This document shows, piece after piece, positions 19,318-22,164 of a stretch of 38,503 nt of DNA. A model generated the notes under the pieces. The model did not search any database. It worked only from the letters and a program-made list of their open reading frames with translations, and was not told the DNA's origin. The DNA is from Thermoproteota archaeon. GTDB lineage: Archaea; Thermoproteota; Methanomethylicia; Culexarchaeales; B10-G16. The stretch is taken from positions 1 to 38,503 of the forward strand of contig QMRB01000006.1 of the NCBI GenBank assembly GCA_003649185.1, given 5' to 3'. How positions within the stretch are numbered: the stretch's first letter is position 1; each line of letters begins with the position of its first letter. The position numbers were made by a program, and so were the translations under genes.

Positions 19318-19578
19318 TCAATTGCCCACGCTATGAAATTTATCATTCAGCAACACCTCAACCACTTTCCTTCTAGATTTAAAGCCAGAGACTATTCTAA
19401 CTCTATCTCTAGAAACTTTGAAATATTTGGAAAGTTTGCGGATGAGTTCAAGATTCGCCTTCCCTCTTAAAGGTTTAGAAGTTAAACCTATAATTATCTC
19501 GTCTCCTTCAACTTTGATGAAGTTCTTTCCAAATACGACTTTAACGTGGAAGAGCATTTCATAGTATAAATTGGCCAT
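19318..19578 (-). CDS. DUF167 (YggU/UPF0235) family protein
   Basis: An 86-aa single-domain protein of normal family length. GLTSKPLRGKANLELIRKLS and the following SRDRVRIVSGFKSRRKVV are the conserved family core. The function is unproven in all domains of life. The ATG is preceded by AT-rich sequence and no Shine-Dalgarno, so it may be a leaderless transcript. It is divergent from the actin operon, with 109 nt between the starts holding both promoters. Confidence 0.9.
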   Translation of the reverse strand: MANLYYEMLFHVKVVFGKNFIKVEGDEIIIGLTSKPLRGKANLELIRKLSKYFKVSRDRVRIVSGFKSRRKVVEVLLNDKFHSVGN

Positions 19579-19687: not shown

Positions 19688-20959
19688 ATGAGTGAAAAGT
19701 ATAAGAGAAAATATACTTTCGGAGAGGATTATGGGACGAGCTTCTATAAGTTTGGACCGATAACTTTAGGGGAGAAGCCGAGGCTCATTGAGAATAGAGG
19801 ATACTTTCCAGACAAATCTTCAGTGATTTACAAGTTGATGGGAATAACTAGGGAGGTAATAGTGGGAGAAAAATTGCCTTCATATTTAGAGTCAAAGGAG
19901 GATCTTGCATCTAGACTGATATATCCGATGAGAAATGGAGTGGTAGATAAGGATGATGAGAAGGCTTGGAGAGTCATAGAGGAGATCACTGGATACGGAT
20001 TGAAAGCGTTCAGGTCTGTTGGATCGGATTTTAAGGGATACTTCGTTACGGCGGCATTATCTTCAATAGCTCCGAGATACATGTATGAGAAGATTATCGA
20101 AATACATAGAAAAGTCGATTGGGAAACTGGACTTATAAGAGCGGTGACTATAATTCCGCAACCATTAGCTGTGGCGATAGCACATAAAGCTCCAACATGC
20201 ATTGTAATTGAAAGTGGACATGGAAATACACAGATATGTCCAATATCGAGATATCCAATTAGAAGTGCCATAATAGCGCTTAACAGGGGGGGAAGCGATG
20301 CGGATATAATTACAAGCCAAATACTATATGATGCTGGATATGGAGACATAGCCAAGGAAGAAGCAATAGTTAGAAGAATTAAGGAGGCTATAGGCCTCAT
20401 ACCTAAAAGGTTGAATGAGGCAATAAGGGAGGCAAAGAGAAACTATGAGAAATACCATGTAAAGTATAAAATTGCAGGAACAAGAATAGAGGTGGACTTG
20501 GGAAAAGATTCTTGGACAAGATTTTTAATAGGAGAATACATATTCAATCCGAAAGATGAAATGTTTGAAAGCTATTTTAAAAGGGGGATGCGGAGACCTA
20601 GAGACATGAAGATAGGGGAGATAACATTTAGAGGAATGATGGATCTTGGGGAAGCAATAATAGAATCTGTTGAAAAATGCCCTATAGAATTACAGCCATA
20701 TCTTTATAATAGGATAATACTTTCCGGGGGAAATCTTCAATGGAAAGCTCCTCCACAATTTAAAGATGTAGCTGTAGATTCAGCTACAAAGATAAAGATA
20801 CTGTTACAAGAGAAAGGTGTTGAAGGCATTATAGTTGAAACTGCACCTGAACCAAAATACAGCGTGTGGAGAGGTTGCATAGTATATGGATATGCTCTTC
20901 CAAAAGACTATAAGTGGACTTGGGAGAACATGGAAGGTTGGATAGATCTCCATGCATGA
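19688..20959 (+). CDS. Actin family protein (crenactin-like)
   Basis: A 423-aa actin homologue, similar in length to crenactin (about 430) and longer than eukaryotic actin (375). The phosphate-1 loop is visible as DYGTS (residues 14-18). LIYPMRNGVVDKDDEKAW aligns with actin's RYPIEHGIVTNWDDMEKIW. PQPLAVAIA carries the equivalent of Gln137, ESGHGNTQICPI is phosphate-2, and ILSGG is the adenosine motif. It should bind ATP and polymerise into filaments. ATG 19688 follows AAAGGTG by six bases; the GTG at 19679 is part of that site. Its stop overlaps the next gene by 8 nt. Compared with eukaryotic actin, Asp154, Asp157 and His161 read Glu, His and Gln. Confidence in the actin fold is high; its cellular role is inferred. 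Confidence 0.93.
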   Translation: MSEKYKRKYTFGEDYGTSFYKFGPITLGEKPRLIENRGYFPDKSSVIYKLMGITREVIVGEKLPSYLESKEDLASRLIYPMRNGVVDKDDEKAWRVIEEITGYGLKAFRSVGSDFKGYFVTAALSSIAPRYMYEKIIEIHRKVDWETGLIRAVTIIPQPLAVAIAHKAPTCIVIESGHGNTQICPISRYPIRSAIIALNRGGSDADIITSQILYDAGYGDIAKEEAIVRRIKEAIGLIPKRLNEAIREAKRNYEKYHVKYKIAGTRIEVDLGKDSWTRFLIGEYIFNPKDEMFESYFKRGMRRPRDMKIGEITFRGMMDLGEAIIESVEKCPIELQPYLYNRIILSGGNLQWKAPPQFKDVAVDSATKIKILLQEKGVEGIIVETAPEPKYSVWRGCIVYGYALPKDYKWTWENMEGWIDLHA

Positions 20960-21701
20960 AGACGTAACTCAAAAGATTAAAGTATATTTTACAGCTGAAG
21001 GCTATAAGGAGCTGAACTTGGAAAATCTACATGAAAGTTTAAAGCCAGACTTAGCATTCAAAATGGGAGAAAAAACGATTTTCATAAACATAATAGATTT
21101 AGAAGTTGTGAAAGATAGAAGCAGATTCCTTAAAAAATTGATGGGAACAGTCGCCATGTCGGATATTTGTGAAGAAGTTTATGTGGCGATTCCAAAAATA
21201 TTGGCAACATCGATAGATACCGCAGCCTTTAAGGAGCATGGCATAGGAATGCTAATCATTGATAAAACTGTAAGAAAAGTTTTAGAAGCAGAACGGAGAA
21301 AGATCGCAGCTAAAGAAGATTTGAACAGAAAGTTTGAAACTATAGAGACTAGACTTAACCATTTAGAGAAAGCTGTTGCAAACTTGGAAACCGAGTTGAT
21401 AAGACTTGAAAATTTGAAGCATATACAAGTAAATCCTCCTGAAGATGCTAGGATAAACCTGCTTGAAAGCGAAGTTCAAGATCTTAGGAGAAATATGGAG
21501 AGAATAGTGGAAAAGTTGGCTGAAATAGAGAGAAAACTTCTGGGAACTAAGAAAATAAAGGAAGAAGTGAAAATTGGAAGACTGCCCATAACTGAGGGGA
21601 AAATGAAGATACCTTCAGGAGAACTGCCTTCATATCTGCAGGAGAATCCATGGCTTGAGATCTTATCGTCTAAGAGGGGAAAGAGTGATGAGATTAAATG
21701 A
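20952..21701 (+). CDS. Nuclease-fold-like plus coiled-coil protein of the actin operon
   Basis: A 249-aa protein of unknown function. Residues 1-110 alternate strands and helices in an order resembling the PD-(D/E)XK endonuclease fold: KPDLAF at 31-36, a strand KTIFINIIDLE where active enzymes have E-x-K, then ICEEVYVAIPK and HGIGMLIID. The catalytic Glu-Lys pair is missing, so it is probably inactive and used for binding. Residues 122-200 are strongly heptad-like (two coiled-coil segments split by NPPEDAR). The tail 226-241, PSYLQENPWLEILSSK, is hydrophobic and could dock on a partner. It overlaps the actin gene by 8 nt and the next gene by 14 nt, so a physical partnership with the actin is likely. 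I do not recognise it as a known arcadin. Confidence 0.75.
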   Translation: MHEDVTQKIKVYFTAEGYKELNLENLHESLKPDLAFKMGEKTIFINIIDLEVVKDRSRFLKKLMGTVAMSDICEEVYVAIPKILATSIDTAAFKEHGIGMLIIDKTVRKVLEAERRKIAAKEDLNRKFETIETRLNHLEKAVANLETELIRLENLKHIQVNPPEDARINLLESEVQDLRRNMERIVEKLAEIERKLLGTKKIKEEVKIGRLPITEGKMKIPSGELPSYLQENPWLEILSSKRGKSDEIK

Positions 21702-21963
21702 AGGGATAAGAGCCACTCCGATAAGGAGAATAGAGGTAGTTATAGATGTTGATGATCCACTGACACCGATACTTTCAATCGGAGAGTATAGGAGATTATT
21801 TAAAAATGAGCCTAAACCACCCAGATATAGGATAGCGATAATAGAAGTGTTAACATGCCCTGAGGATGGACATGTGGTGCTTGTAAGTGAGTGTGGAGAA
21901 TGCCCGAGATTTATAAAGAGATATGAAAACATGATTTTCTGCTCGATAAAACCGATAAAGTAA
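21688..21963 (+). CDS. Small four-cysteine protein of the actin operon
   Basis: A 91-aa protein. The N-terminal half contains RRIEVVIDVDDPLTPIL. The C-terminal half has Cys57, Cys69, Cys72 and Cys85 (CPEDGH, ECGECPRF, IFCSIK), a spacing that could bind zinc or an Fe-S cluster. I do not recognise the family. The start is ATG 21688, just inside the 3' end of the preceding gene, with a GGGGAAAG site upstream, so it is coupled to the operon. A conserved function with the actin homologue is inferred only from the gene packing. Confidence 0.65.
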   Translation: MRLNEGIRATPIRRIEVVIDVDDPLTPILSIGEYRRLFKNEPKPPRYRIAIIEVLTCPEDGHVVLVSECGECPRFIKRYENMIFCSIKPIK

Positions 21964-22070: not shown

Positions 22071-22164
22071 GCCTCGGTAGTATAGTCCGGCCAAGTATGC
22101 AGGCCTTTCGAGCTTTATGCGAAGGGAGCCTGCGACCCGGGTTCAAATCCCGGCCGAGGCACCA
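22071..22164 (+). tRNA. tRNA-Glu (anticodon TTC) with 16-nt intron
   Basis: Acceptor stem GCCTCGG/CCGAGGC, discriminator A, encoded CCA, and the D-arm sequence TAGTATAGTCCGGCCAA typical of archaeal tRNA-Glu. The anticodon stem CAGGC (22100-22104) pairs with GCCTG (22128-22132). The spliced loop CTTTCGA gives anticodon TTC. The T arm is CCGGG-TTCAAAT-CCCGG. The mature tRNA is 78 nt. Confidence 0.95.
22111..22126 (+). other. Minimal archaeal tRNA-Glu intron
   Basis: A 16-nt intron at 37/38 with a textbook bulge-helix-bulge: CTTT (22105-22108) pairs with GAAG (22121-22124), with three-base bulges CG^A and GG^A. The intron then closes on itself with only GC/GC (22112-22113 with 22119-22120) and a five-base loop. 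Confidence 0.88.

Follow-up and report, generated by a model that had tools for sequence, protein, structure and literature searches.

A probable lineage-specific arcade operon in an archaeon of the Culexmicrobium order, with a divergent arcadin-2 and a candidate accessory protein

What do two overlapping genes of unfamiliar sequence contribute to the archaeal actin gene that they follow? An earlier note, made by reading the letters of this DNA, had claimed a three-gene actin operon in which an actin homologue is accompanied by a nuclease-fold-like/coiled-coil protein and a four-cysteine protein, and had regarded these two partners as unlike the arcadins. The window, i.e., the whole stretch of DNA that was analysed, is a 38.5-kb contig from a genome of 76% completeness. 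The closest crenactin genome of the same order (G001) is that of Candidatus Culexmicrobium profundum.

The operon and its actin

The layout had been read correctly. The coordinates are exact, all three genes lie on the forward strand, and the overlaps are 8 nt between genes 1 and 2 (20952-20959) and 14 nt between genes 2 and 3 (21688-21701). The features are listed below.

19688-20959, forward strand: gene 1, assigned as crenactin (archaeal actin), 423 aa; ATG at 19688, TGA at 20957-20959
20952-21701, forward strand: gene 2, assigned as a divergent arcadin-2, 249 aa; ATG at 20952, TGA at 21699-21701
20952-21296, forward strand: arcadin-2 N-terminal domain, residues 1-115, PD-(D/E)XK-like fold (AlphaFold, Foldseek)
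21306-21560, forward strand: coiled coil of arcadin-2, residues 119-203, modelled as two long helices; weak coiled-coil-type Pfam matches
21624-21677, forward strand: predicted crenactin-binding C-terminal tail, residues 225-242, LPSYLQENPWLEILSSKR
21688-21963, forward strand: gene 3, four-cysteine protein, 91 aa; ATG at 21688, TAA at 21961-21963
22071-22164, forward strand: tRNA-Glu (ARAGORN), the downstream bound of the operon

Alignments of homologues favour the ATG starts over longer GTG (19679) and TTG (21655) starts. A short ORF upstream (19318-19578) is directed away from the operon; the tRNA-Glu gene on its other side is 94 nt long, and a small intron would fit. In about 18 species (distinct loci counted), crenactin, arcadin-2 and gene 3 are neighbours with the same strand orientation, and the arrangement is therefore not a matter of chance. 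Very probably, the three genes constitute an arcade (crenactin) operon that is lineage-specific and comes from a member of the Culexmicrobium order; in it, arcadin-2 is joined by a probable accessory gene, gene 3.

The identity of gene 1 as crenactin, claimed in the earlier note in the more general form of an archaeal actin homologue, is well supported by similarity searches. Gene 1 matches the NCBIfam crenactin model NF053560 with E=4.6e-174 and 579 bits (5-419/1-422), the Pfam Actin family with E=8.8e-16 and the crenactin structures 4cj7/5ly3 in the PDB with E=3e-115 (4cj7, E=2.9e-115). The score under the curated NF053560 cut-off of 630 fits a divergent lineage; identity to other Thermoproteota crenactins is 44-72%. 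By analogy with the Pyrobaculum protein, gene 1 crenactin would polymerise with ATP into F-actin-like double filaments. Thermoproteales have neither FtsZ nor ESCRT, and roles in shape and division have been proposed for crenactin (PMC7617429, PMC7613921).

Gene 2, its N-terminal domain and its tail

Gene 2 is not recognisable to a reader because, taken alone, it matches NCBIfam arcadin-2 (NF053561) only weakly, with E=0.0043 and a score of 16.8 bits where the cut-off is 290; a direct PDB sequence search with gene 2 returned coiled-coil noise only. The family tells more. The gene 2 homologues found next to crenactin elsewhere belong to a single family, and profile-profile comparison (hhalign) of its 46 members with Thermoproteaceae arcadin-2 gave 99.1% (E=1.4e-18) across 187 columns, which span the N-terminal domain, helical middle, linker and C-terminal tail. 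NF053561 (Rkd2) itself matches seven of the 11 family members scanned, with a best E=2.6e-95, and arcadin-2 adjoins crenactin in 57 of 80 named loci, in four of them as a membrane form. These comparisons identify gene 2 as a divergent arcadin-2. The view that the partners are unlike arcadins consequently fails for gene 2, a clear match to one of arcadin-1 to -4, and holds for gene 3, which falls outside the known arcadins. Nonetheless, gene 2 differs from known arcadin-2 in its identity of about 20%, in its longer coiled coil and in the tail of its family, which reads DNPW or ENPW where known arcadin-2 has (D/E)NEW.

The resemblance to the arcade cluster of Pyrobaculum (arcadin-1 to -4) extends to gene order, crenactin being followed in both by an arcadin-2 with a groove-binding C-terminal helix, known in Pyrobaculum and predicted in the window. 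However, the window operon is devoid of arcadin-3 and -4 and has the four-cysteine protein after arcadin-2 instead, and arcadin-1 is unlinked, with its homologue on another contig of the same genome (G000:C1:58614-58919, L126; 43% identity, E=1.1e-18). The presence of crenactin and arcadin-2 in Culexarchaeia is already known: PMC9723716 reports both, by arCOG, from marine Culexarchaeia of the same order as the window, and its passages on these proteins describe neither the operon nor the third gene.

In the AlphaFold model of gene 2, a confident N-terminal domain (pLDDT mostly >90) is followed by long helices, and a disordered linker leads to the helix of the tail. Most leading Foldseek matches of the N-terminal domain are PD-(D/E)XK proteins (Hjc, OkrAI, BamHI; E 0.05-0.3), and both parts of the earlier description, nuclease-fold-like and coiled-coil, are borne out by the model. 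With Hjc and restriction enzymes among its matches, gene 2 might be taken for an active nuclease, and the operon for a DNA-processing or defence system. However, the Foldseek likeness is weak (nothing at E<=0.001; a protein of unknown function ranks first, with E=0.016), and the catalytic E-x-K is not conserved, as the E position is acidic in 0% of the 46 homologues. The candidate catalytic Asp columns are acidic in 36-47% of these homologues and hold no conserved Asp, and the core of conservation sits in the predicted actin-binding tail. On residue conservation the active nuclease was rejected, and we regard it as extremely improbable. Because the catalytic E-x-K is absent, the N-terminal domain of arcadin-2 is predicted to be at most a pseudonuclease fold.

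Nearly all gene 2 homologues end in P[SDE][FY]...[DNE]NPW[LVI].[ILV]L, and N232, W234 and L238 are invariant in all 46; in the window, the C-terminal peptide containing W234 is LPSYLQENPWLEILSSKRGKSDEIK. Sequence comparison places tail residues 225-242 opposite residues 187-203 of Pyrobaculum arcadin-2. In P. calidifontis, these residues bind the hydrophobic groove of crenactin in a crystallographically defined manner and depolymerise filaments; the arcadin-2 complex there has a Kd of 31 nM, and the tail and the D-loop of the next subunit are competitors (PMC5173319). Since the tail is conserved, it is reasonable to assume that the window arcadin-2 acts in the same way. The dead nuclease-like domain and the coiled coil would then hold a flexible linker ending in the amphipathic helix LPSYLQENPWLEILSSKR, which would plug the groove in competition with the D-loop and thereby lead to monomer sequestration or to filament depolymerisation and capping. 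In one arcadin-2 from another genome (L152, G135:C2), two tail motifs stand in tandem, recalling tandem WH2.

The four-cysteine protein downstream

Gene 3 carries the motif C-x11-C-x2-C-x12-C, whose four cysteines, as the earlier note had read them, are invariant in a 13-member alignment. Their spacing is zinc-ribbon-like, and gene 3 is probably a zinc-binding protein of an unnamed family. Its AlphaFold model is confident (pLDDT 92.9); Foldseek found no fold match in the PDB at E<=0.001, and Pfam, NCBIfam and PDB sequence searches with gene 3 gave none above chance. Each of the remaining arcadins was rejected as a counterpart. The arcadin-1 homologue of the window genome lies on the other contig mentioned above, the ORF taken as arcadin-3 in L023 is Cys-free, 56 aa long and located between arcadin-2 and -4, and arcadin-4 of the same locus is an SMC-like protein of 798 aa.

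Of 398 Thermoproteota genomes, 13 encode a strong homologue of gene 3. All 13 also have crenactin, which is present in 128 of the 398 (hypergeometric p=3e-7, with genomes counted without regard to phylogeny). The homologues span 11 families of archaea. In 12 of the 13 genomes the gene is directly downstream of arcadin-2, the exception being genome G118, in which it is away from the crenactin/arcadin-2 locus; 11 named GTDB loci have the same gene order, with neighbouring genes overlapping or separated by a few nt. Mapped on the crenactin tree, the trait requires 1-2 changes compared with 10.7 for shuffled labels, fitting one gain followed by inheritance and later loss.

It could be objected that gene 3 simply travels with the operon: as a passenger from a generic four-cysteine family, it would lie downstream of arcadin-2 by accident and play no part in actin function. 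Small Thermoproteota proteins with a similar CPx..CxxCPxFxRR..C pattern do occur unlinked to actin, and the G118 copy is unlinked as well. Nonetheless, full-length homologues are found only in crenactin genomes, and adjacency in nearly all of them, across that many families, is linkage of a kind that seldom survives without function. We therefore consider a passenger unlikely. Gene 3 is best read, from its sequence and distribution, as a new, lineage-specific arcade component. As synteny suggests, it would most likely serve the arcadin-2/crenactin complex as an accessory subunit, with the N-terminal domain or the coiled coil of arcadin-2 as a possible docking site.

The gene 3 profile also gave weak matches across whole genomes (E 1e-6 to 1e-3), most of them confined to positions 53-90; these were set aside as a wider four-cysteine motif and not as orthologues. 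Proteins of this kind (L119-L125) are roughly 80-120 aa long, carry CP..C..CPNFIRR...C and are unlinked to actin; none of three tested belongs to a Pfam family.

The arcadin-2 tail across Thermoproteota

A profile of the arcadin-2 tail, comprising 20 positions, was searched in the 398 Thermoproteota genomes. It matches 119 of them, 115 with crenactin, compared with only four of the 270 crenactin-negative genomes (Fisher p=4e-79, again counting genomes without regard to phylogeny). One of these four matches is marginal (E=0.0088), and the other three come from drafts of 79-90% completeness. Crenactin genomes that lack a match are mostly of the Thermoproteaceae type (family f18), in which the arcadin-2 tail has NEW and not NPW. 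Among the tail matches listed, 67 of 150 are not beside crenactin, and several families have two to five matches per genome.

We examined 40 stretches with tail matches, nearly all unlinked to crenactin, and a few more (L127-L166, L180, L198, L200, L203, L204). In nearly all, a small, separate protein carries the tail at its C-terminal end; at the unlinked loci, the tail lies 3-12 residues from the C-terminus. About half of these proteins have a sigma70-region-4-like HTH, in several cases above the Pfam cut-off, and others have C2H2 fingers (two above the cut-off) or weaker AbrB, RHH and winged-helix signals. The arcadin-2 tail of Thermoproteaceae reads NEWV, and a genome with such a tail also encodes an HTH-like protein (L180) that has DNEWVRLLRARG at its end. 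More generally, a tail is closer to the arcadin-2 tail of the same genome than to those of other genomes; only 3 of 20000 shuffles were as good, and 1 of 20000 when the Thermoproteaceae pair was included, a resemblance that relatedness of the genomes could partly cause. Crenactin is accompanied at four loci (L087, L088, L096, L103), which belong to Methanomethylicus and two further lineages, by an integral membrane protein that combines a coiled coil with an arcadin-2-type DNPW tail. In contrast, the survey PMC9723716 found no arcadins in Methanomethylicia.

Taken together, the sequence evidence tips the balance slightly towards the C-terminal helix of arcadin-2 being a portable crenactin-binding motif, shared by arcadin-2, the membrane forms and several predicted DNA-binding proteins per genome. 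The odds are even that the system couples actin to DNA and is not a shape/division cytoskeleton; in that case, tail proteins with DNA-binding domains would tie crenactin to the chromosome, and the arcadin-2 of the window would be the core member of the set. Such coupling is favoured by the near-restriction of the tail to crenactin genomes, by the matches away from crenactin and their HTH, C2H2 and weaker AbrB, RHH or winged-helix domains, and by the likeness of tails within a genome, including the Thermoproteaceae pair. On the other hand, the window genome has a single tail protein, arcadin-2, whose slightly acidic N-terminal domain (mean net charge -2.8) speaks against DNA binding by that domain. 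Several N-terminal domain assignments among the tail proteins score under the Pfam cut-offs. Moreover, part of the unlinked set is, or may be, arcadin-2 that has been relocated. If coupling does occur, the tail-bearing DNA-binding and membrane proteins would bring crenactin to DNA or to the membrane.

In RPEL/MRTF systems, short helices in the actin groove control polymerisation, and MRTF links actin to transcription. The tail proteins recall these systems, as well as ParM-ParR and WH2/thymosin, in the use of short groove helices to control polymerisation, and ParR and MRTF further resemble them in joining actin to DNA or transcription; the likeness, however, comes with no demonstrated sequence relationship. 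Because a bound tail blocks the groove, tail proteins can bind monomers or the exposed end of a filament, and two roles therefore fit: ParR-like segregation adaptors that would cap filaments, or RPEL/MRTF-like regulators that would sense free actin. Indeed, ParR likewise occupies the groove of its actin (PMC5173319), which counts in favour of coupling.

Searches of open-licence papers turned up no account of gene 3, and none of DNA-binding proteins that bear the tail. A conserved third operon member offers a new handle on the role of crenactin in uncultured lineages. In addition, crenactin-binding proteins across TACK archaea, many of them with DNA-binding domains, become predictable from a short motif, which makes a link between archaeal actin and the chromosome testable. 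If this link is true, TACK archaea would possess an actin-to-DNA adaptor system comparable to ParR in segregation or to actin-sensing transcription factors.
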